Under the pieces are notes generated by a model. The model saw nothing but the letters and a program-made list of their open reading frames with translations, was not told the origin of the DNA and ran no database searches. From NCBI GenBank assembly GCA_903876765.1, contig CAIRBH010000038.1, positions 1 to 52,089 of the forward strand: DNA of 52,089 nt. Reading direction: 5' to 3'. This document shows, one piece after another, positions 9,149 to 52,089 of this stretch. The DNA comes from an uncultured Pseudomonadota bacterium. Its GTDB lineage: Bacteria > Pseudomonadota > Gammaproteobacteria > Burkholderiales > Methylophilaceae. How positions within the stretch are numbered: the first letter of the stretch is position 1; each line of letters starts with the position of its first letter. Both the position numbers and the translations under genes were made by a program.

Positions 9149-9925
9149 TTAGTACTTATTATGCTTTCTTGGGCTGACGGTGAGCGTTAGTATGCCACGT
9201 AATAGGTTGACTTCTTCTTTTTCTAGCCGACTTCTTGCATAAATTCGTCTTAAACGCTCCATGAGTTTTTTTGGCGCATTGGGGTTTAAATAGCCGATAT
9301 GTAGCAAAGTTGCCTCTAAATGTGCGTAATATGCTTCTAAACTATCAATAGTGGCGTATTCAGGGCTGGTGTTAAGGTTAAGATTATCATCGGCGATGTG
9401 TTGAGCGGCTAAGGCCGTCATTCTGAGTTCGTAACACATAATTTGCACGGCGGCTGCCAAGTTGAGCGAGGAGTATTCAGGGTTGGCTTGTATCATGGCC
9501 AGTAATTGGCAGTGGTCTAGCTCAGCGTTAGATAGGCCGCTCATTTCGGTACCAAAAACTAGCGCAACAGGCTGTGAGCTGGCGATTTCTATGGCTTTTG
9601 CAGCGGCAGTTCTGACATTGACAAGTTCATGCGATAGGCCACGTTTACGGGCACTCATGCCTATGGCAAAAGCGCATCCAGTTAGGGCTTCGGCTAAAGT
9701 ACTAGTAACTATGGCATTGTCTAGTAAATCAGCCGCACCAGTCGCTAGCGCCGTAGCATGAGCGTCAGGAAAGTGTTGCGGATTGACTAAATATAAATGC
9801 TGCAAGCCCATGGTTTTCATGGCGCGTGCAGCCGAACCTATATTGCCAGGGTGGCTGGTTTGGCATAACACCACACGAAAATTGCGCAAGCACAGTAACT
9901 GAGGCGACTCTGTATTTTCTGACAT
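9149..9925 (-). CDS. trmJ: tRNA (cytidine/uridine-2'-O-)-methyltransferase TrmJ
   Basis: TrmJ methylates the ribose at position 32 of certain tRNAs using S-adenosylmethionine. It has 258 residues with the SPOUT-family motifs in order: VVLCQTSHPGNIGSAARAMK at the N-terminus (motif 1), VALVFGTEMSGLSN (motif 2) and SLNLAAAVQIMCYEL (motif 3), which form the trefoil-knot cofactor site. A C-terminal helical extension follows. It is upstream of cysE on the same strand; trmJ-cysE-iscR is a recurrent neighbourhood in beta- and gammaproteobacteria. Confidence 0.93.
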   Translation of the reverse strand: MSENTESPQLLCLRNFRVVLCQTSHPGNIGSAARAMKTMGLQHLYLVNPQHFPDAHATALATGAADLLDNAIVTSTLAEALTGCAFAIGMSARKRGLSHELVNVRTAAAKAIEIASSQPVALVFGTEMSGLSNAELDHCQLLAMIQANPEYSSLNLAAAVQIMCYELRMTALAAQHIADDNLNLNTSPEYATIDSLEAYYAHLEATLLHIGYLNPNAPKKLMERLRRIYARSRLEKEEVNLLRGILTLTVSPRKHNKY

Positions 9926-9943
9926 TAAAATACTGCAAAAATA

Positions 9944-10567
9944 CTATTTTTGCGCTTCAAATTTTTCAGCTTTACGGTCTATCAGCCCACACATGAATTC
10001 TTTCATTTCCCAAAATGGGATAGGGTCTTTGTTATACAAGCGCACTCTTTTTGGCAGTCCAGCTTTTTCAACTATATTTTCTTCAGTCAAGTCAGTAATG
10101 ACAACAATGGCCATAGCGGAAAATGCGGGGATGTCTCGCAGCGCATTGAGCATGGCAAAGCTGTCGATTTCTGGCATGGTGAGGTTAGTCAACAGCAAGT
10201 CAGGATTGTGCTGAGCTAGGTAAATCAGGCCTTCATAGGCGTTAGTAAAGTACTGAATATCAATCGCCAAGCCCCAAGCTTCTATGGTTTGCTTATATAG
10301 ATCCACTGTTGCCGCGTCGTTTTCTATGACGACTACACCTAAGGCCGTGCTATTGTGCCTAGGCAGCTGCGGAAACTTTTTCGCGGCCACCATGCGGTCG
10401 AACGAAGCTCGGGTAATGCGTCTATGGCCACCCGGGGTTTTCCATGCTTCTAAGGCGCCGCGTTCTACCCAAAGTTGAACGGATCGTATGGTGACGCCTA
10501 GCTCTTTTGCTACATCGCTGGTCGTCATGAGGTCAAGCGCCTGTAATGCTAATTTTTTCATTGCCAC
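9944..10567 (-). CDS. MerR/excisionase-type HTH fused to a receiver-like domain lacking the phospho-Asp
   Basis: This 207-residue protein joins two modules. Residues 14-60 are a MerR/excisionase-type winged helix (TTSDVAKELGVTIRSVQLWVERGALEAW followed by TPGGHRRI). Residues 76-197 fold like a response-regulator receiver: the acidic patch is reduced to Glu82/Asp84, the phosphoacceptor position is Asn128 (DLLLTNLTMPEID), Thr158 and the conserved Lys180 remain. It is therefore probably a DNA-binding protein with a non-phosphorylatable receiver. The listed start is GTG; ATG at codon 3 or Met14 are alternatives. It is the last gene of a six-gene signalling run, 50 nt after the CheY-like gene and 18 nt before trmJ. 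The target DNA is unknown. Confidence 0.85.
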   Translation of the reverse strand: MAMKKLALQALDLMTTSDVAKELGVTIRSVQLWVERGALEAWKTPGGHRRITRASFDRMVAAKKFPQLPRHNSTALGVVVIENDAATVDLYKQTIEAWGLAIDIQYFTNAYEGLIYLAQHNPDLLLTNLTMPEIDSFAMLNALRDIPAFSAMAIVVITDLTEENIVEKAGLPKRVRLYNKDPIPFWEMKEFMCGLIDRKAEKFEAQK

Positions 10568-10617
10568 TTTAATTTAACCTTTATTGATTAATATGTTGAT
10601 TGAGCTAGATTAATTAT

Positions 10618-10989
10618 TTAAACGATCTGTTCATTTAATACGCGCTCTATTTCACTGAGCAAATGTGTAGGGCTAAACGGCTTAGTAATATAGCCATTTG
10701 CGCCTGCTTGCAAGCCTTCTATTATTTCATTTTGCTGAATTAAAGCGCTGATTAAAATAATTTTGATGTCGCTGTATTCATACCAACGTCTAATCAGTTT
10801 GCACCAATCTAAGCCATTGACCCCTGGCATCATGATGTCGAGCAAAATTAAGTCTGGCTTATCATCTTCTAATCTAAGGCTGGCATCAACTGCACTAATC
10901 GCCTCAGTGACTATATATTTTGTTCCCACACTGACTTTGATGAGTTTTCTAATTTCAGCATTGTCATCAATTACTAAAATTTTCTTCAT
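10618..10989 (-). CDS. Single-domain response regulator (CheY-like)
   Basis: This 123-residue protein is a stand-alone receiver. The acidic pair is Asp8/Asp9, the phosphoacceptor Asp51 (LILLDIMMPGVNG), and Lys103 lies in YITKPFSP; all are intact, so it should be phosphorylatable. There is no output domain. It starts 63 nt after the histidine kinase stop and is the obvious partner of that kinase. Its position before the HTH/pseudo-receiver gene suggests that output passes through protein-protein contacts, perhaps with that protein. The partner assignment is inference from adjacency. Confidence 0.9.
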   Translation of the reverse strand: MKKILVIDDNAEIRKLIKVSVGTKYIVTEAISAVDASLRLEDDKPDLILLDIMMPGVNGLDWCKLIRRWYEYSDIKIILISALIQQNEIIEGLQAGANGYITKPFSPTHLLSEIERVLNEQIV

Positions 10990-11052
10990 TACCGCCTCCC
11001 TGCCGAACTATTCTACATATATTCTAAAAAATGCGCTATCACTTCGCTATCA

Positions 11053-13695
11053 CTAAGTATTTTTTATGACCGCGTCTATTGATATAGAATCAGCCACGGG
11101 TAAATACAGCATCACTTTAGTCCCTAGTTTGTATTTACTTTCTATTTCTACTGAGCCACCATGTTGATCCATAATGTTCTTTATAATCGCCATGCCTAGG
11201 CCTGTTCCTGGAATAGCGCCCGCTGGGTTCGCTCGATAAAACTTTTCAAATACCCGCGCTAGCTGCTCAGGCGTCATGCCTATGCCATAATCTTCAATGG
11301 CAATTAATAGTTTGCGCTGTCCATCGTGCATCACTTCAGCGACGTGCATATCAATTGGGCCATGCTTGGGCGAGAATTTATAAGCATTACTTAAGCAGTT
11401 TTTAACAGCCTGCTCAATTTTAGCTATATCGACTTTAACTTCAGGTAAATTTTGCGCTAGGTGTAGATTGATTTTGTTATGATTGTCAGAGGTAATAAAA
11501 GTTTCAGCCAGCGTTACTAGGCTTGGGCCTATCTGCTGAGTTTTCATCTGCAACAATCCTACCGCCTGCGCTTCGATTCTAGCCACATCTAGCATGTCGT
11601 TGAGCAAGTTAATCATGGCGTTAGATTGGTTGTAAATTACTTCTAGCATCTCGTGCTTTTCATCAGCATTACCCGCGCCCATTTTTAACAGTTCGGTATA
11701 ACCATAGATCATGGTCATAGGCGTTCTTAACTCATGGGCAGCAGTGGCAACAAACTCAGATTTCATTTTGTCTATTAAGATTCTTTCGGTAATGTCGTTA
11801 TAGTAAATAATTCTACTGATACGAGGAATGTTGCAGTCTATATAGTGGCGTGCAATAACTTTTCCATCAGTCAACTCTAAGTTGAATCCTAGCGCATGGT
11901 CTTTGGATGCGATTGTTTTGCCTACTTTTATATCAGATTTAATCGCTAAATTGGATGTCGCTATATAGTTATCGGTATGAATGCATTTTTCTTTAATAAA
12001 ATTATCAAGTTCAATTTCATGAATAGATAAAATTTGCTTTGCTTTAACCTTAAATAGCTGGCAAAAAGCTGGGTTAACATAAGAAACCTGACGTTCAGGA
12101 CTAATCGCCAGCATAGGGTTAGGGTTAGAATCAAATAGCGCTTCTTTGTCTTCATGTTCACGTTCAGTGCTTGCTAAGACCTGCTTTTGCGATGTGATGT
12201 CGCTTTGTATAGACACATAGCCAGAGTTTTTATTATCCTCATCAATGGGCGTGGCAATGATGTGTGTCCAATATTTTTCACCTGACTTTTTATAATTGAC
12301 CACTTCTACATTAAAACCTTTATGGTGTTTAATGGCGCCATGCATGATTTTTACCGTATCTGGGTTGGTCTCTGCACCTTGCAAGAATGAGCCTAGTTTT
12401 TTACCCAGCATAAATGCCGCAGAATAGCCCGTGAAAGCTATAAAAGCAGGATTCACCCAAAGCACATGGCCATAACAGTCGGTGATGCTGACGGAATTGG
12501 TGGTAGTTTGCGCAACAATGGCGAGTTTTTTGTACTCCTCTTTGCTGGCTGATAGCATGGCTTCTCTAGCGCCGTTAATGGCGAGTAGCTGATTAAAGGC
12601 TTTAATTAAAGTGCCAATTTCATCATGGTGATGCACCTTTAAGTGTTGCTGGGTAAAGTTTTCAGGGTTTTTTGACCAAGTTGCAAGGGTTTGTGCCGCT
12701 TCAGTCATGGGTATAAATAGTTTTTTTAGGCTCCATCTAGACAAGATAATCATGAGCATGATAGCGATTAAGGCGCACAACATAGTGCGAGCGTTATTGA
12801 GGGCACGTATTGGGGCAAAAATCTCTGCGGTGGGCAATGTCACAATGAATTGCCAGCCAGCTAAGGGAATTAATTTAGACGACTCTAGTACTTCAACGCC
12901 CTTGGAGTTCAAACCCACACTACTGCTACTATGGCTGGCCAGATATTCATCTATTAACGCTATCTTGTCCAGTGGGGGCAGTTGTTCCATGACGCGGTTT
13001 TTATCGGTTGCCGATACTATCAGGCGATGTTGATGGTCCACAATCAGAAACTCACCATTTTCACCATACTGATTGCTAGTGACTTTATCAATAAAGTTGA
13101 TTTTTGCCAGATTGGTTGCACCCACTAAGGCGGCGATGACTTGACCTTGCTCGTCACTAATGGCGTTCACCATTAAAAATAGCGGGGCTTGATGATATTG
13201 ATCTAAGCTGGGTGTGCCGACTATGCTTTTGGCTTGACCACTCAATACGGCTTTAATTGAAGCTTGGTCGATAAATGGTTTAATCTCACGCGCTTGGTCG
13301 CTAATGATAGTGCCATCGGCTTTAACGATGTATAAGCCTTCATTAAATAGCGTTTCAAGCACAGGGTGGCGACTTATTTCGGCTTGTATTAAGGGTGGCT
13401 GATTGAGCATGGCGCGGGTAAAAAATTGAGTCGCAACTGCCAGTGCGGTCAATCGGTCATAGAACTCATGGTTGAGTTGCGCGGCTGCCACATTGGCGGT
13501 AGAGACTTGCTGCTTAGCGCTTAAGCTTAGGATGTCTTCGCGAATATTCTTTTTGGCAAAGCTAATTAATAATATGGCCGCTAGCACAAAACTTGCTAAA
13601 ACAGCAGCTATCACCTTGGTTTTTAAAGAAAGCGATTTGAGATTTTTCATCTTATTTAAGTGTTCGTTTATTTTCTCAAATGGTTTCCAAGTCAT
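11053..13695 (-). CDS. Membrane sensor histidine kinase (Cache-HAMP-PAS-PAS-HisKA-HATPase)
   Basis: This 880-residue sensor kinase has a first membrane helix at about 27-47, a periplasmic double-Cache sensory region at about 50-300, a second helix at about 303-321 and a HAMP-like linker at about 322-375. Two PAS domains follow (about 385-500 and 515-640). The HisKA domain has its phospho-acceptor at His654 (FVATAAHELRTPMT). The ATPase domain has the N box near 764-774 (VKNCLSNAYKFS), G1 DYGIGM at 802-807 and G2 GTGLGM at 830-835. There is no receiver or HPt module, so the flanking receiver genes are likely targets. The ligand is unknown; Cache domains often bind amino or organic acids. The start is weakly supported, and Met16 is an alternative. 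Confidence 0.92.
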   Translation of the reverse strand: MTWKPFEKINEHLNKMKNLKSLSLKTKVIAAVLASFVLAAILLISFAKKNIREDILSLSAKQQVSTANVAAAQLNHEFYDRLTALAVATQFFTRAMLNQPPLIQAEISRHPVLETLFNEGLYIVKADGTIISDQAREIKPFIDQASIKAVLSGQAKSIVGTPSLDQYHQAPLFLMVNAISDEQGQVIAALVGATNLAKINFIDKVTSNQYGENGEFLIVDHQHRLIVSATDKNRVMEQLPPLDKIALIDEYLASHSSSSVGLNSKGVEVLESSKLIPLAGWQFIVTLPTAEIFAPIRALNNARTMLCALIAIMLMIILSRWSLKKLFIPMTEAAQTLATWSKNPENFTQQHLKVHHHDEIGTLIKAFNQLLAINGAREAMLSASKEEYKKLAIVAQTTTNSVSITDCYGHVLWVNPAFIAFTGYSAAFMLGKKLGSFLQGAETNPDTVKIMHGAIKHHKGFNVEVVNYKKSGEKYWTHIIATPIDEDNKNSGYVSIQSDITSQKQVLASTEREHEDKEALFDSNPNPMLAISPERQVSYVNPAFCQLFKVKAKQILSIHEIELDNFIKEKCIHTDNYIATSNLAIKSDIKVGKTIASKDHALGFNLELTDGKVIARHYIDCNIPRISRIIYYNDITERILIDKMKSEFVATAAHELRTPMTMIYGYTELLKMGAGNADEKHEMLEVIYNQSNAMINLLNDMLDVARIEAQAVGLLQMKTQQIGPSLVTLAETFITSDNHNKINLHLAQNLPEVKVDIAKIEQAVKNCLSNAYKFSPKHGPIDMHVAEVMHDGQRKLLIAIEDYGIGMTPEQLARVFEKFYRANPAGAIPGTGLGMAIIKNIMDQHGGSVEIESKYKLGTKVMLYLPVADSISIDAVIKNT

Positions 13696-13714
13696 TTTTA
13701 CACATAATGGTGCG

Positions 13715-14011
13715 TTAAAGTGCGTCGACTGATGTTTTATTTAGACGATCTTTGAGCATTTTTCCGCTCTTAAAGCTGGGGTAAGCGGTCTCAGCGCGCT
13801 GAATTTTTTCACCTGTGCGCGGGTTTCTAACGATACGTGCTGCCCGCTGCTTGCTTGAAAATGTGCCAAAGCCGCGTATTTCAAATTTATTGCCACAACT
13901 TAATTGGTGGCTCATCGCGTTAATCATCTCGTTGATACATAGCAGGCAATCCGCCTCTGATAGTTCTGGGAAGTTCAGTTTGATATTGGCTACTAGTTCA
14001 GATTTAGTCAT
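13715..14011 (-). CDS. HU/IHF-family nucleoid protein (IHF-beta-like paralogue)
   Basis: This 98-residue protein belongs to the bacterial DNA-bending HU/IHF family. The MTKSELV start, GNKFEIRGFGTFSSKQR beta region and RNPRTGE arm tip, whose proline intercalates in DNA, are all present. It resembles the IHF beta subunit most. The usual ihfB neighbour rpsA is absent, so this is probably an additional paralogue rather than the housekeeping copy. It lies inside the signalling run, 19 nt before the histidine kinase and 39 nt after the HD-GYP gene, so it is likely co-transcribed with them. A role in local promoter architecture is inference. Confidence 0.88.
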   Translation of the reverse strand: MTKSELVANIKLNFPELSEADCLLCINEMINAMSHQLSCGNKFEIRGFGTFSSKQRAARIVRNPRTGEKIQRAETAYPSFKSGKMLKDRLNKTSVDAL

Positions 14012-14050
14012 GGTTAATCCTAGGTTTTCATTAAGTTCATCATTAATTAT

Positions 14051-14815
14051 TCAAGCGGGCCACATAAATTTAGTGTGTGAGTAGTTGAGTAGCTGGCTAT
14101 ATTGCTCTGGGCTGGTGTTAATGCGCAGCCGTAATTGCTGGAAACATTCAATATGGGCCATAAAAACTGCCAGTATGTCAGGGTCAAACTGTTGGCCAGT
14201 TTGGCTTGCTAGCATTTTTATCGCCTGATCATCAGTAAAAGCCGCTCGATAAGGTTTGTGCATGGTGAGCGCATCAAAACAATCAACCAAGGCAATAATT
14301 CTGGCTGCCAGCGGAATGGCGTAAGCGGCTAATTGATAAGGGTAGCCAGTGCCGTCAAATTTCTCATGGTGGCTAAGCGCAATGCTGGCTGCTAGCTGGA
14401 ATAAGGGCGTATCGGCTTGGCTTAAAATATGATGGCCAATCTCTGTATGCCTGTTCATGATTGCCCGCTCTGCGGGGCTAAGTGCGCCAGGCTTATTTAA
14501 AATAGCCTCAGGAATACCCAAATTGCCTACATCGTGCATAGGGGCGGCTAAACGCATCAGGTCACAAAATTCATCAGGCTCACCCAATAAACTGCTTAAT
14601 TTTCCTGCCATGTAAGCCAGCCGAATATTGTGTTGCAGGGTCGTTTGATCTGGGTGTTGGCCTGCGATAGCCAAGCGCATCAGCACTTCATGATGCGCCT
14701 CATGGCTAGTCAGTAAAGCTTGATCTGTAGGAGTATTTTGGCTGGCAGTATGCCCCAGTATGCCCCAGTTGGGCTGGGCTACATCGCTTTGCTGCGAATA
14801 ATTATGCCTTGCCAT
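14051..14815 (-). CDS. HD-GYP domain protein, probable c-di-GMP phosphodiesterase
   Basis: The HD-GYP domain hydrolyses cyclic di-GMP in characterised members. With the start used here the protein has 254 residues: the metal-binding HD pair is at 94-95 (MHDVGNLGIP) and the second signature HHEKFDGTGYP is at 149-159, both complete. The open frame extends upstream to ATG 14857, but that would overlap the preceding receiver gene by 56 bases. ATG at 14821 or 14815 gives a shorter overlap and loses no domain; ribosome sites are weak for all. There is no attached receiver, so the upstream response regulator may act on it in trans. Confidence 0.87.
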   Translation of the reverse strand: MARHNYSQQSDVAQPNWGILGHTASQNTPTDQALLTSHEAHHEVLMRLAIAGQHPDQTTLQHNIRLAYMAGKLSSLLGEPDEFCDLMRLAAPMHDVGNLGIPEAILNKPGALSPAERAIMNRHTEIGHHILSQADTPLFQLAASIALSHHEKFDGTGYPYQLAAYAIPLAARIIALVDCFDALTMHKPYRAAFTDDQAIKMLASQTGQQFDPDILAVFMAHIECFQQLRLRINTSPEQYSQLLNYSHTKFMWPA

Positions 14816-15317
14816 GACCATCTTTATGCTTAGCGGTATGTTTATGCCCGCCATCATTAGTCATTGCTGAAAGTTGCCGCATAGCCACCTCCATTAAATG
14901 AATCACACTAAATGGCTTAACAATATACTCATTAGCCCCGGCTGCAAGCCCTTTTTTGATGTCGCTAGTTTGACCCCTAGAGCTGACTAACACTATAGGC
15001 ATATAGGCCAGTTCTGGCGTATCTTTGACTATGCGGCACAAGTCCAGTCCATTAGTCATTGTTGGCGTATCAGTATCGGCACCTTTGGACAAAACAATAT
15101 CGAGCAGCATTAAATCTGGCTTAAGTGTGCGTGCTAGATGCAGCGCAGTTTGGCAGTCACTGGCTTCGTAAATTTTATGCTGGGTAGGCGCTAGTGATAA
15201 TTTAATCAATTGACGTATATGGTCTTGATCTTCAACAAGCAAAATCACCTTGGCTGGTTTGCTTGTATCAAGCGCAGCAGCGTCATTCTCTATATAGGGG
15301 TGGTGATGTTGATTCAT
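14802..15317 (-). CDS. Response regulator receiver protein with a loop insertion
   Basis: This 171-residue protein is a receiver domain with short polar tails and no output domain. The acidic pair is Glu29/Asp30, the phosphoacceptor is Asp73 (LMLLDIVLS) and Lys134 is in YIVKPFS. About ten extra residues (KGADTDTPTMTNG) follow the phospho-Asp where canonical receivers have a short PGMDG turn. The C-terminus is rich in His and Lys. It is the first gene of the signalling run and overlaps the HD-GYP gene. In other bacteria receiver and HD-GYP are often fused, so these two probably function as a split pair. Confidence 0.88.
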   Translation of the reverse strand: MNQHHHPYIENDAAALDTSKPAKVILLVEDQDHIRQLIKLSLAPTQHKIYEASDCQTALHLARTLKPDLMLLDIVLSKGADTDTPTMTNGLDLCRIVKDTPELAYMPIVLVSSRGQTSDIKKGLAAGANEYIVKPFSVIHLMEVAMRQLSAMTNDGGHKHTAKHKDGHGKA

Positions 15318-15675
15318 AAAATAGGGTTAATAGTTAAGGGTTTTTGTAACTTTGATAAATTTAAAAAGTATTTTTTATTTTATCAGATTGAATTATTATT
15401 TTGCATAAAAATATCAATTTAAAGTTAATTTTTTATGCGCTTAATCTGTAGCATCATGTAAGTTTGGCGGGCTTAAGTTGCAAATTTTGTTCAGCTTAGG
15501 CTAAGCTGGTCGATTGCTGACCCATTGCGGGTTGTGGTAGGTTAATATGCAAAATCGTATTAAAATACAGGCTGAATAGTTCTTTAACACGCCTTTCAAT
15601 CCAATGGTGAACTATGCAAATTCGGCATATTCATGATTTGATAAAAGTAAAGCACCTACACAGATTCGAGAAAAT
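15318..15675. other. Divergent intergenic region, AT-rich
   Basis: This 358-nt gap separates the minus-strand signalling operon from plus-strand suhB, so it must hold promoters for both. The half next to the signalling genes (15340-15430) is very AT-rich. On the minus strand a TTGATA (about 15411-15406) followed by A/T-rich sequence is a possible promoter, but no good -10 is clear. I saw no gene, repeat or strong hairpin here. Confidence 0.5.
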
Positions 15676-16482
15676 ATGCATCCTATGCTCACTAACGCAG
15701 TGAAAGCTGCACGCCGCGCTGGCAACATTATTACCCGTGCCTCCGAGGATATAGGCTCACTAAAAATTCAAACAAAAACCTATAATGATTTTGTTACCGA
15801 GGTCGATAAAGCCGCAGAACAGGCCATTATAGACACCCTTAAAACGCTATATCCAACACACGGCTTTTTGGGCGAAGAAAGTGGCGAATCGAATATTCAA
15901 TCAGACTTTATTTGGATTATTGACCCGCTAGATGGCACCACCAATTTTTTGCATGGTCTGCCACAATATTGCATTTCAATTGCCCTGCAAGAGCGCGGCG
16001 TATTGACCCATGCCGTGGTTTATGACCCCAACCGTAATGACTTGTTTACCGCCACCAAAGGGCGTGGCGCATTTTTAAACGATAAGCGTATTCGCGTCAC
16101 ACAGCGCACTAAATTGCAAGAATCAATTATCGGCACGGGCTTTCCGTTTCGTGATTTTAGCCATTTAGACACCTATTTAGCCATGCTCAAAGACATGATT
16201 AAAAAAACCACAGGCATACGCCGTCCTGGCTCTGCCGCCCTAGATTTAGCTTACGTAGCTGCGGGTTGGTATGATGGCTTTTGGGAAATCGGCCTATCTA
16301 CTTGGGATATCGCCGCAGGTGGTTTAATTGTGCAAGAAGCAGGCGGCATAGTTGGCGATTTTGAAGGTAATGAATCTTGGCTTAAAACTGGCAATATTGT
16401 TGCGGCTAACCCTAAAATATTTGCACAAATGCTACAAACCTTAGCGCCACATTTAACCGAAGGCCTGACCAGCCCTAAATAG
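15676..16482 (+). CDS. suhB: Inositol-1-monophosphatase family protein SuhB
   Basis: The family hydrolyses inositol phosphates in a magnesium-dependent way; SuhB of E. coli is also part of the rRNA antitermination complex. The protein has 268 residues. The metal-site motifs are present: Glu67/Glu68 in GEESG, DPLDGTT with Asp83 and Asp86, and Asp211 in STWDIAAGG. It is followed by mutS after 45 nt on the same strand. The start ATG is the one matching the usual MHPML N-terminus. Confidence 0.94.
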
Positions 16483-48093: not shown

Positions 48094-51000
48094 ATGAAGC
48101 GCCACGCATCCTTAAATCGCATTTATAGACTAGTCTGGAATCAGACTTTAAGCGCATGGGTGGCAGTTGCAGAAACGGCACGCGGCCGCGGTAAATCATC
48201 AGCCAGACGTAAATTAATAGTCAATGCAGCCGCAGCGACGGCGGCACTGGCGCTGGCTTTTTCGCCCTATGCCCAAGCAGGCCCCACAGATGGCCAAGTG
48301 GTGGCAGGTACTGGCGCTATTAGTCAAGCTGGCAATACCACCACCATCAATCAAAGCAGCCAAAATCTGGCCATAAACTGGGCTGACTTTAGTGTGGCGG
48401 CTCATGAGGCGGTGCGCTTTAATCAACCTAACGCATCGGCTATTGTGCTTAATCGAGTGCTAGGGCAAAGCGTCAGCCAAATTTATGGCGCGGTGTCAGC
48501 CAATGGCCAAGTGTTCATCTTAAATCCCAATGGCGTGCTGTTTGGTGCAGGTGCACAAGTGAATGTAGGTGGCTTAGTCGCCTCTACCTTAAGTCTCAGC
48601 AATGATGACTTTATGGCCAACAAATTGAGCTTTAGCAGTACTGGCGGCGCAGGACAGGTGATTAATCAGGGTACCCTAACCGCTGCACAAAGCGGCTATA
48701 TCGCCCTCTTAGCACCGCAAGTGATAAACGAAGGGGTGATTTCTGCCACCTTAGGCAGCGCCTTACTGGCCGCTGGCAATCAAGTAACGATTAATTTAAG
48801 CCAAGGTGCTTTAATCGGCTTTAGCATAGATAAAGGCGCATTTAAGGCGCTGGTAGATAATAAGCAGCTGATAGAAGCTGACGGTGGGCAGGTGTTTATG
48901 TCGGCCAAGGCCGCTGAAGCCATTACCACGGCCATGGTCAACAATACCGGCATTATAGAAGCGCGCACCATGGCTAACGTCAATGGTCATATTGAAATGA
49001 TTAGTGACATGGCGCAAGGCACTACCCATGTTGGTGGCACCCTAGACGCTAGCGCGGCTAATGGCGGCAATGGCGGCACTATTGAGACCTCAGGCGCGCA
49101 TGTAAAAATTGCCAATAGCGCACATATCACCACAGCCGCACCATCTGGCAATACTGGCTCATGGTTGATAGACCCACTGGACTTTACAGTAGCGGCCACA
49201 TCTGGCGATATTTCAGGAGCAGACTTAGGCAGTTTATTAGATAGCACTAGCATTACCATACAAACGGCAGACCCCACGCCCAGCGGCGGCAGTAATTTAA
49301 TTGGTGCCAGCGGTAGCAATGGCAATATTTTGATCAACGATACAGTGTCATGGTCAGCGGCTAACACGCTCACATTAGATGCCTACCGCAATATCACCAT
49401 TAATCAAGCCATCACTGCTAGCCATGCTGATGGTATGTTGGCTTTAAAATATGGTCAGGCTGACAGTAATGGTTTGTTTGGCGGCATCGCCGCAACTTAC
49501 AGCATCAATGCCCCAGTGAATTTGCAGGCCGGATTAAATTTTAGTACGCAATTAGGCTCAGGTCATTCTGCTGAAATTTACCAGGTGATTACCAGTTTAG
49601 GGGCCCAAGGCAACCCTGCTGGCGAAGGTTTGCAAGGCATCAATGGTGGTAATTATGCGCTAGGCAGCAATATTGATGCTACAGAGACTAGCCTCTGGAT
49701 TGGCTCGGCGGGCTTCCAACCGCTAAGCTCCATGAGTATTAATTTTGATGGCTTAGGTCATACCATCAGCAATCTTACGATTAATCATGCTAGCGAAGAC
49801 AATGTGGGGCTATTTAGTACTACTGTTTTTTCAACGATTAGCAATCTAGGCTTGGTCAATGCGAGCATTACTGGGCGAGATTATGTAGGCGGTCTGGTCG
49901 GCTCGGCAACAGCGACTAATGTCAATAATAGCTATATCACAGGCGCAGTGGCTGGTAGAAATGTCGTGGGTGGCTTGCTAGGCGACAATAACGGCGGCGC
50001 GGTGAGCGCCAGCCACTCGGCGGCAACGGTTCATGGTGTAGATGTAGTCGGCGGCTTAGTGGGAAGTAATCGGGTCTGGGATTTAGGTGCTGATAATGTC
50101 CGTGCTGGCATGATCGCTAACAGTGAGGCTACAGGTAATGTCAGTGGCGAAAATTTCGTTGGCGGCCTACTAGGACATAACCAAAGATACACTCATATTG
50201 ATGGAGTTACTGTTTCTTACGCTAGCGTTATGGATAGCCGCGCCAGCGGCAATGTAACAGCTAATTCTTCTGTCAATAACCTTGTTAATCCCAATTTTTG
50301 GGAGGGCGCTCAAAAAGTCGGTGGTTTGGTTGGATTAAATGAAGGCTTCGTAGTAATGAGCCATGCGTCAGGTAACGTCAATAGTAGTTTTAACCTGAAT
50401 GTTGATCTTCCTTTAAACGGCGATACCCAAGGCATTAGCAAAGTTGGCGGCCTGATTGGCGCTAACGTTAATGGATTTGTATATGGCAGTGATGCTACGG
50501 GCAATGTGAGTAGTGTATTTAATTATAATTTAAACGAGGCAGTCACTGGCAATGTCACTGCCGTTGGCAGCGTTGGCGGCTTGATTGGTGTTAACTTTGG
50601 CTACCTAATGGCGAACCACGCCAGCGGCAATGTGAGCAGTCGGTATAATATTCAAAATGTTGCATCTTATGGGAGTAGTCATTTTGTCAATGCGGTAGGC
50701 GGTTTAGTTGGCTACAATTTACCTGACTTTGGTAGTAGCAAGGTAGGTATTGATAATAGCTATGCCACTGGCAATGTAAGCGGAAATGCCACCAGGAATT
50801 TTGGTGGACCTAGAGTGAACTATGATGATGTAGGTGGCTTGGTTGGCATTAATTATGGTTTTATCGATAATAGCTATGCCACTGGCAACGTCTCTGGTAA
50901 TTTTGATGTCGGCGGTTTGGTGGGTTACAACGATGGTCATATTAGTAATGCTTACGCCATAGGCAAAGTGGCGGGTGCCGATTATGCGGGTGGCTTGGTT

Positions 51001-52089
51001 GGTTACAACAGTGGCACTATCGACACCACTTATGCCACGGGGGCGGTAGCAGGTAGCAGTTTTGTGGGTGGTTTGGTTGGTGAGGGCACTGGCTCGGTGT
51101 TTGATAGTTATTGGGACACTGACACTACAGGTCAATTCAGCTCAGCTGGCGGCGCTGGCAAAACCACCGCAGAACTCTTGAGTTCATTCACCTATGCGGG
51201 CTGGAGTTTTGGAGATTCACCAGGCATGTACACTTGGTTCATGCTAGAAGACCAAACCCGTCCGTTCTTACAATCTGAATACAGCATGACGATTACGAAT
51301 AGCCACCAATTACAACTGATGGCCATGGTTTTAAACGCCGATTACACACTGGCCAATAACATAGACATGAGCCATGAGTTCAATAATGTGAGTGGCATGT
51401 GGGCGACTAATAGCCTAGCGGGTAGTGGCTTTTTGCCAGTCGGTGCGGGTTATGGCAGCCCATTCACAGGCACGTTTGACGGGCAAAATCACACCATCAC
51501 AGGCTTAACGATTAATCGCCCAAGCACTTGGGGCGTAGGCTTATTCGGTTATGGCAATGCTAGCATCAGCAATGTGGGTTTGATAGATGTTGCTATTAGT
51601 GGCTACGGTGGTGCGGGTGGTTTGGTTGGTAAGAATTACGGCAACATTAGTAATAGCTTTGTGACAGGCACCGTGTACGGCGCAGATAATGATGTCGGTG
51701 GCTTGGTAGGCAATAACGTAGGCGGTATCGTTGATAGCTACGCCAGTGCCAGTGCCACAGGTTTTTATCATGCTGGCGGCTTAGTGGGTCACAACGACGG
51801 CAGCATCACCAGTAGCTATGCGACTGGCTCGGCCACAGGCGATATCAGCGATGGTGGTACGGGAGGCTTAGCTGGCTTTAACAGCAGCAGCGGCATTATA
51901 GATACCAGTTATGCCACTGGCAATGTCAAAGGCGGTAGCGATGTTGGCGGTTTGGTGGGCTATAACGGTGGCGACATAGATAATAGCTACGCTACTGGTG
52001 GCGTCATAGGTAAGCAAAATGTCGGTGGCTTGGTCGGTTATAACGGTGGTGTGGTCACTAGCAGTTTTTGGGATACACAAACCACAGGC
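48094..52089 (+). CDS. Two-partner-secretion exoprotein (TpsA, filamentous hemagglutinin type) with GLUG modules, 3' truncated
   Basis: The frame stays open for 1332 codons to the window edge. Residues 8-34 (LNRIYRLVWNQTLSAWVAVA..) are an extended signal peptide region typical of type V secretion, followed by a hydrophobic core and a likely cleavage after AQA at 62. The TPS secretion domain follows, with NQPN at 110-113 and NPNG at 144-147. From about residue 570, glycine-rich GLUG-type modules of the form (D/Y)VGGLVGxN...SYATG occur; I count 18 GGLVG-like cores. They fall in two blocks, each introduced by a FDGxxHTI segment and the first closed by a SYWDTDTTG segment. No TpsB transporter gene is in view. 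The start codon lacks a good ribosome site. Confidence 0.93.
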   Translation, partial: MKRHASLNRIYRLVWNQTLSAWVAVAETARGRGKSSARRKLIVNAAAATAALALAFSPYAQAGPTDGQVVAGTGAISQAGNTTTINQSSQNLAINWADFSVAAHEAVRFNQPNASAIVLNRVLGQSVSQIYGAVSANGQVFILNPNGVLFGAGAQVNVGGLVASTLSLSNDDFMANKLSFSSTGGAGQVINQGTLTAAQSGYIALLAPQVINEGVISATLGSALLAAGNQVTINLSQGALIGFSIDKGAFKALVDNKQLIEADGGQVFMSAKAAEAITTAMVNNTGIIEARTMANVNGHIEMISDMAQGTTHVGGTLDASAANGGNGGTIETSGAHVKIANSAHITTAAPSGNTGSWLIDPLDFTVAATSGDISGADLGSLLDSTSITIQTADPTPSGGSNLIGASGSNGNILINDTVSWSAANTLTLDAYRNITINQAITASHADGMLALKYGQADSNGLFGGIAATYSINAPVNLQAGLNFSTQLGSGHSAEIYQVITSLGAQGNPAGEGLQGINGGNYALGSNIDATETSLWIGSAGFQPLSSMSINFDGLGHTISNLTINHASEDNVGLFSTTVFSTISNLGLVNASITGRDYVGGLVGSATATNVNNSYITGAVAGRNVVGGLLGDNNGGAVSASHSAATVHGVDVVGGLVGSNRVWDLGADNVRAGMIANSEATGNVSGENFVGGLLGHNQRYTHIDGVTVSYASVMDSRASGNVTANSSVNNLVNPNFWEGAQKVGGLVGLNEGFVVMSHASGNVNSSFNLNVDLPLNGDTQGISKVGGLIGANVNGFVYGSDATGNVSSVFNYNLNEAVTGNVTAVGSVGGLIGVNFGYLMANHASGNVSSRYNIQNVASYGSSHFVNAVGGLVGYNLPDFGSSKVGIDNSYATGNVSGNATRNFGGPRVNYDDVGGLVGINYGFIDNSYATGNVSGNFDVGGLVGYNDGHISNAYAIGKVAGADYAGGLVGYNSGTIDTTYATGAVAGSSFVGGLVGEGTGSVFDSYWDTDTTGQFSSAGGAGKTTAELLSSFTYAGWSFGDSPGMYTWFMLEDQTRPFLQSEYSMTITNSHQLQLMAMVLNADYTLANNIDMSHEFNNVSGMWATNSLAGSGFLPVGAGYGSPFTGTFDGQNHTITGLTINRPSTWGVGLFGYGNASISNVGLIDVAISGYGGAGGLVGKNYGNISNSFVTGTVYGADNDVGGLVGNNVGGIVDSYASASATGFYHAGGLVGHNDGSITSSYATGSATGDISDGGTGGLAGFNSSSGIIDTSYATGNVKGGSDVGGLVGYNGGDIDNSYATGGVIGKQNVGGLVGYNGGVVTSSFWDTQTTG

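Follow-up and report, generated by a model that had tools for sequence, protein, structure and literature searches.

IHF and other bacterial nucleoid proteins are viewed as global factors. RpfG-type phosphodiesterases join a receiver (REC) to an HD-GYP domain, and HnoK and HnoB are genes of the nitric-oxide network of Shewanella. Five phosphorylation positions of receivers are described in PMC12632262; BldC attaches to direct repeats and distorts the DNA (PMC5859096); and loss of two-component systems toward the pelagial, with genome streamlining, has been described for the Methylophilaceae (PMC6794327). Here we analyse a six-gene signalling cassette on one whole contig from the genome of a freshwater methylotroph of this family (C38, 52,089 bases; the window, meaning the entire stretch of DNA analysed). 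The genome (label G000) comprises 1.91 Mb in 53 contigs, is 90% complete, and has Methylotenera as close relatives according to matches to named records. No paper describing such a cassette was found in the open-licence literature. Its conserved gene order shows the cassette to be a real unit. Our leading reading, held at a little under even confidence, is that the output core of this unit is a helix-turn-helix (HTH)-receiver protein and a dedicated IHF-beta paralogue, with a kinase, lone receivers and an HD-GYP protein as dispensable input.

Results

Composition of the cassette and its versions in relatives

Six open reading frames (ORFs) occupy the minus strand at 9944-15317 in the ORF list of the window. 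From REC1, through the HD-GYP protein, the IHF-like protein, a histidine kinase and REC2, to the HTH-receiver, they are separated on the coding strand by -56, 39, 19, 63 and 50 nt, as the first-pass annotation had described (collinear genes that overlap or lie at most 63 nt apart). Pfam finds the domains named there in all six proteins, the dCache (dCache_1) and HAMP matches of the kinase falling under the cut-offs. Because trmJ lies only 18 nt (9926-9943) beyond the HTH-receiver gene, spacing alone cannot delimit the six-gene run; its boundary is drawn from synteny, suhB being next to trmJ in relatives.

For relatives, neighbouring genes were taken from mechanically called ORFs and given names from their similarity to the window proteins or to profiles made from those. 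On this basis G015 carries the full six-gene order on two contigs, C201 and C68, which overlap at their ends within the HTH gene, and in G020 suhB is followed by REC1, HD-GYP, IHF-like and kinase genes, the contig ending inside the kinase. The order is not due to chance, because it recurs in these two genomes, and the possibility that no relative conserves it, raised with the original description, does not hold.

Four small genomes (G002, G027, G038 and G049) have solely the IHF-like and HTH-receiver genes at the suhB-trmJ site, and a fifth, G042, has solely the HTH-receiver. We link the two genes because they are the sole cassette genes at the site in four genomes, a pattern which suggests that their products may work together. 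Among these pair genomes omega (Nei-Gojobori; some comparisons with G000 saturate) is 0.095-0.159 for the HTH-receiver and 0.066-0.253 for the IHF-like gene, showing that the pair is under purifying selection, although less constrained than a housekeeping gene. The earlier suggestion that the IHF-like protein is dedicated to the regulator gains support from both observations. The presence of the pair is notable because the family loses two-component systems toward the pelagial. The same five small genomes have 0 or 1 GGDEF gene, 5-7 HisKA genes and no HD-GYP match at E<=1e-20, absences that are provisional because the genomes are 80-86% complete.

Related component sets are found rearranged elsewhere. 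G032 has the first four genes (REC1-HD-GYP-IHF-kinase) on C64 and REC2-HTH-receiver pairs on C27 and C157; LSUCC0135 and UBA6140 have kinase, IHF-like, kinase, HD-GYP, REC1 and HTH-receiver genes within ~8.6 kb; and in G048 and G012 an HTH-receiver (incomplete or broken in G012), a more distant IHF-like gene, REC1 and HD-GYP lie close together. LSUCC0135 is described as an isolate (PMC5095479), and its form of the IHF-like protein is diverged. Since G032 shares the REC1-HD-GYP-IHF-kinase order at another place, the comparison suggests that the fuller gene set may be the older state. G032 (L096, L112-L115) has six HTH-receiver matches in all, two of which share a contig with an HU-like gene.

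A dedicated IHF-like gene

The IHF-like protein is a member of the HU/IHF family (Bac_DNA_binding cut-off, 22.4 bits) and retains the RNPxTG arm motif. IHF-beta is its closest named family, even though it scores under both IHF-beta cut-offs (NF001222, 98.1 vs 115; TIGR00988, 93.6 vs 119.95). It is one of five HU/IHF genes in the window genome, the other four of which would be named by sequence as two HU, one IhfA and one IhfB. In the IHF tree the eight Methylotenera copies group together (80/91) and are joined, with moderate support, by those of LSUCC0135 and UBA6140 (87/79), beside canonical IhfB and not IhfA or HU; deeper joins are unsure because of long branches. This placement argues for a separate IHF-beta paralogue.

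An IHF search taken by itself (E<=1e-25) found the dedicated gene in 8/52 genus genomes. Seven of these eight carry an HTH-receiver, compared with 17/52 overall (hypergeometric 9.4e-4, a value that ignores kinship). A profile of ten known copies, a set that excludes G048 and G012, gave 114.2-176.2 bits in their ten genomes and at most 92.3 in all others listed, which shows that no additional copy stands out among the matches listed for the 187 family genomes.

The HTH-receiver and its altered phosphorylation site

The HTH-receiver starts at a GTG, with an ATG two codons further, and combines an N-terminal MerR/excisionase-like winged HTH with a C-terminal putative pseudo-receiver (E82, N83, N128, T158, K180). 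It matches the excisionase-type HTH model (TIGR01764, 35.8 vs 28.8), lies under the cut-off of the BldC family (NF033787, 35.3 vs 77), and exceeds the Response_reg cut-off of 30.2 bits. The predicted structure (mean pLDDT 84.7) shows an HTH at the N terminus and a receiver fold at the C terminus, and the 50 matches listed from a structure search with this model are all receiver domains, 3cnb being among the first.

In place of the usual quintet (two acidic residues, phospho-Asp, Ser/Thr and Lys) the window protein has E, N, N, T and K. The quintet is complete in 0/7 HTH-receivers at the suhB site and in 65/67 named relatives; these 67 rows include three that by title are also of Methylophilaceae, and 13/80 named loci were left out (nine on the same contigs as genome rows, two, L155 and L156, counted by strain name, and two partial G045 copies). 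The second acidic residue is absent in all seven proteins at the site, while the phospho-Asp position holds Asn in G000 and Glu in G042, and G015 is without the Lys. Among the other Methylophilaceae rows the quintet is complete in 13/14, the exception being G032_C12, and the phospho-Asp is kept in all 68 named rows, LSUCC0135 included. Because all seven proteins at the site are incomplete and nearly all other relatives complete, the change is characteristic of the suhB-trmJ site, and the HTH protein there reads as a pseudo-receiver. This revises the label of the protein (7/7 incomplete, against 2/67 named relatives).

History of the suhB-trmJ site

At the limit used, trmJ was matched in 45/52 genus genomes, and 30 loci were fetched. 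In 15 of these suhB adjoins trmJ with nothing found between, in seven cassette genes lie upstream of trmJ, and in eight the short stretch holds no suhB. The seven carriers form one clade in the trmJ tree (97/90), with the neighbouring G007 and G001 having empty sites, and their HTH-receivers likewise fall into a single clade (97/93), in which G015 is represented by its longer piece only. Both trees split the carriers into G000 plus G015 and G042 plus the four pair genomes. Most simply, the cassette would have been inserted between suhB and trmJ once, in one Methylotenera clade, and then inherited. A recent mobile island is disfavoured, because the main splits of the two trees agree and the cassette, with a G+C content of 0.430, is just slightly below the 0.458 of the remaining window. 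Judging from the IHF tree, parts may have been transferred, with G032 involved.

Kinase, lone receivers and HD-GYP protein

The kinase and both lone receivers appear intact. The HELR motif of the kinase is conserved in alignment, and by eye the aligned REC1 keeps its acidic pair, phospho-Asp, Ser/Thr and Lys, as REC2 keeps its phosphorylation residues. Kinase input differs among versions, with a weak dCache in the window and SBP_bac_3 in G032 and LSUCC0135; inspection by eye for the amino-acid-type dCache ligand motif saw none.

The HD-GYP protein was initially taken for a c-di-GMP (cyclic di-GMP) hydrolase. Its domain assignment holds, the HD pair and GYP residues being kept, and it aligns to the solved HD-GYP protein 4mcw with E 1.5e-43. 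The residues compared are the metal ligands and substrate contacts of 4mcw. Of these positions two are changed, Thr72 standing for a Glu of 4mcw and Asn112 for the Lys of the HDxxK motif, with the remaining tabulated residues kept. Because both are changed in 3/3 members of the full-cassette lineage (G000, G015, G020), hydrolysis of c-di-GMP by the window protein is doubtful. Asp and Lys occupy the two positions in three G032 proteins and in G048, G012, UBA6140 and LSUCC0135; nine further HD-GYP loci comprise four with Asp and Lys and five with gaps or other residues, some of which are probably alignment error. The fused receiver of RpfG-type proteins is missing here, REC1 and HD-GYP being separate, overlapping ORFs.

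HTH-receiver neighbourhoods at large

We kept the best 80 of at least 566 HTH-receiver relatives from a scan of named records, the neighbour counts being minima given contig ends. At 44/80 loci a kinase is encoded no more than 8 kb from the HTH-receiver, at 19/80 an HD-GYP gene falls in that range and at 6/80 an HU/IHF gene, and a lone receiver lies within 300 nt on the same strand at 12/80. The six HU/IHF loci are all from Methylophilaceae genomes: contigs of G002, G027, G015 and G032 (an HU-like gene), plus UBA6140 and LSUCC0135. By these frequencies, the HTH-receiver family often has kinase, receiver and HD-GYP genes as neighbours; the local addition, and the new element, is the IHF-like gene. 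The first-pass annotation's statement that it knew no described system with such a composition therefore goes too far for the kinase, HD-GYP and lone receiver genes, the HU/IHF member alone being unusual.

A lone receiver directly upstream of the HTH-receiver was also seen in G032, L143, L145 and L146. Outside the family, G084 (L124) has one HU/IHF gene near its HTH-receiver; that of G090 (L127) was set aside, as by eye it adjoins pheT-like genes and is probably an ordinary ihfA. The HTH-receivers of L145, L146, L148 and L150, from metagenome-assembled genomes titled Methylococcales or Crenothrix, are 53-54% identical to that of the window, above most other genera listed, a likeness that may reflect methanotroph-methylotroph gene transfer or binning error. 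In four larger Methylotenera genomes (L098, L099, L100, L101) a 351-aa kinase comes after the HTH-receiver, and the L098 HTH-receiver sits next to CheW, chemoreceptor and CheZ genes. In G048 the HTH-receiver has genes for a bactofilin and an M23 peptidase nearby (L108 7051-11023), and LSUCC0135 has, by eye, a similar bactofilin-like gene (L156 7923-9630). A distant HTH-receiver in G054 (L116 7038-10345) is directly upstream of mutS, a gene also found near the window cassette.

Intergenic DNA and flanking genes

In the suhB leader, GTTCTTTAACA at window 15579-15589 (+) fits the boxA consensus GYTCTTTAANA, and suhB is described as repressed by Nus factors in E. coli (PMC5725501). The core TTCTTTAA is present upstream of suhB in 7/7 cassette-bearing relatives and 8/8 empty-site loci scanned. 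The block conserved in all eight aligned intergenic sequences was considered as a shared operator and rejected, since it reads as this boxA-like suhB leader. Intergenic repeats differ among the six regions scanned, and no BldC-type direct-repeat site was identified in them. Scans for promoters (13 sites, shuffle mean 16.4) and terminators (6, shuffle mean 7.1) gave no excess.

Table 1. Features of the cassette and its borders (window coordinates)
Feature	Position	Strand	Remarks
REC1, lone receiver, 171 aa	14802..15317	-	Pfam Response_reg 68.8 bits
HD-GYP protein, 268 aa, no own receiver	14051..14857	-	Pfam HD_5 120.4 bits
IHF-beta-like protein, 98 aa, probable dedicated paralogue	13715..14011	-	Pfam Bac_DNA_binding 86.1 bits
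Histidine kinase, 880 aa	11053..13695	-	dCache and HAMP (both under cut-off), PAS, PAS, HisKA, HATPase_c (Pfam)
REC2, lone CheY-like receiver, 123 aa	10618..10989	-	Pfam 91.4 bits
HTH-receiver, 207 aa	9944..10567	-	Pfam HTH_17 40, MerR 31.2, Response_reg 38.9 bits
trmJ	9149..9925	-	downstream boundary gene, outside cassette
suhB	15676..16482	+	divergent upstream boundary gene, outside cassette
Intergenic region	15318..15675	.	putative promoter for the cassette, plus a suhB leader block conserved in alignment

Reading of the ORFs places cysE-, iscR- and iscS-like genes after trmJ, and the 18-nt spacing makes transcriptional read-through from the cassette into trmJ possible. At 48094-52089 (+) a large repetitive ORF, by eye a haemagglutinin-like surface protein, runs off the contig end.

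Discussion

We propose that in the full cassette the kinase would phosphorylate the two intact receivers, REC1 and REC2, as their residues would allow. Since the receiver of the HTH protein is probably no longer phosphorylated normally, phosphorylated REC2 would probably control it by docking on the pseudo-receiver. The winged HTH would then bind target DNA, which the IHF-like protein would bend or stabilise; DNA distortion of the BldC type would fit a bending partner. REC1 and the HD-GYP protein would together be a split REC-HD-GYP protein, now more probably serving as a c-di-GMP-binding or protein-binding part than as a fast hydrolase. In the small-genome versions the input genes would have been lost, and not added elsewhere. 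A narrower proposal, possible but somewhat doubtful, is that the MerR/BldC-like HTH pseudo-receiver and its own IHF-beta paralogue form a phosphorylation-independent switch, which was once the output of a kinase/c-di-GMP circuit and outlived that circuit in streamlining.

Several observations count against the leading reading. The G032 IHF-like copy falls beside the pair genomes inside the cassette-copy group (93/87), while the G032 HTH-receivers fall outside the suhB-site clade, which means that vertical descent alone does not account for every part. Within the four pair genomes, branching also differs between the trmJ and HTH-receiver trees (with weak support in the trmJ tree). In G032 the contig with the IHF-like gene carries no HTH-receiver, none is matched in the G020 genome (where the contig ends in the kinase), and the dedicated IHF is absent from 28/37 family genomes with an HTH-receiver. 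The IHF-like proteins of UBA6140 and LSUCC0135 (L155 2215-2547, L156 2244-2543) lack the RNPxTG arm motif, yet are encoded near kinase, HD-GYP and HTH-receiver genes, which argues that there they do something other than bend DNA. The pair has an omega several times as high as trmJ (0.014-0.030). Family-wide, 9/10 IHF-like-positive genomes have an HTH-receiver, against 37/187 (1.7e-6), a biased figure in that the profile was made from the same ten and LSUCC0135 and UBA6140 were met through the HTH-receiver search; neither hypergeometric value is a true probability, because the IHF-positive genomes represent few lineages. Finally, the first-pass annotation had envisaged a nucleoprotein complex at target promoters; the intergenic alignment and repeat scans of six regions revealed neither a target nor a shared binding motif for it.

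The cassette could instead be an ordinary two-component operon, in which the kinase and two receivers are the pathway, the HTH-receiver is a normal regulator of a single operon and position alone keeps the IHF-like gene, as an unrelated hitchhiker. The intact look of the kinase and lone receivers agrees with this, as does the scarcity of HU/IHF genes (6/80) where kinase (44/80) and HD-GYP (19/80) genes are more frequent. But the reduced sites lack kinase, receivers and HD-GYP, yet 4/5 have the IHF-like gene, and within the genus that gene co-occurs with the HTH-receiver in 7/8 genomes, so we regard a plain operon as unlikely. Another reading, which we hold to be quite unlikely, is that of an alternative beta subunit: the IHF-like protein would partner housekeeping IhfA and work across the genome, and the HTH-receiver would only control its expression. 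Although IHF-beta is the closest family of the IHF-like protein (98.1 bits), it groups with IhfB rather than IhfA or HU, and the genome has four other HU/IHF genes, it scores under both IHF-beta cut-offs, and the LSUCC0135 and UBA6140 forms without the arm motif are still near an HTH-receiver.

Decay, in which altered receiver and HD-GYP residues and missing genes are steps to full loss in streamlining, would draw on the key residues altered in two of six proteins, on the second changes in the HTH protein, which differ among G000, G015 and G042, and on the described streamlining of the family with loss of two-component systems (PMC6794327). We consider it very unlikely, as the frames of the window are open, omega is well below 1 for the IHF-like and HTH-receiver genes of the pair genomes, and all seven proteins carry a change at one and the same position, the second acidic one, as a single shared change predicts.

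If, as we propose for the output core, gene order and co-occurrence link an IHF paralogue to a single regulator, that paralogue would serve as a DNA-architecture factor private to it. Full cassette, pair, HTH-receiver alone and empty site, all at one chromosomal address in related genomes, form a series that offers a natural experiment on which signalling parts are essential, and informs how a receiver is repurposed after loss of phosphorylation.

Comparison with known systems

The HnoK/HnoB/HnoC/HnoD network of Shewanella (PMC8738867) resembles the cassette in having one kinase with several targets, including a transcription factor and c-di-GMP outputs; unlike the cassette, no IHF gene figures in the excerpted description of that network. 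Loss of key phosphorylation residues in the window HTH protein is a likeness to the pseudo-receiver domains surveyed in PMC12632262, although MerR and HTH do not occur in the main text of that survey and HnoC appears in its references only. The best PDB sequence match to the HTH-receiver profile is 3cnb (E 1e-16), a 'merR family DNA-binding response regulator' of Colwellia, whose matched chain is the receiver only. The BldC-family regulators (PMC5859096) are small MerR-like winged HTH proteins without the MerR coiled coil, and the window HTH matches their model, if under its cut-off; it differs in the receiver domain fused behind the HTH. With RpfG-type REC-HD-GYP proteins and 4mcw the window protein shares the HD-GYP domain and most active-site residues, but its receiver is on a separate gene and two active-site positions are changed. 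Finally, the IHF-like protein has integration host factor beta as its best named family and shares the RNPxTG arm, yet it scores under the curated cut-offs, forms a separate tree group and is encoded in a signalling cassette.

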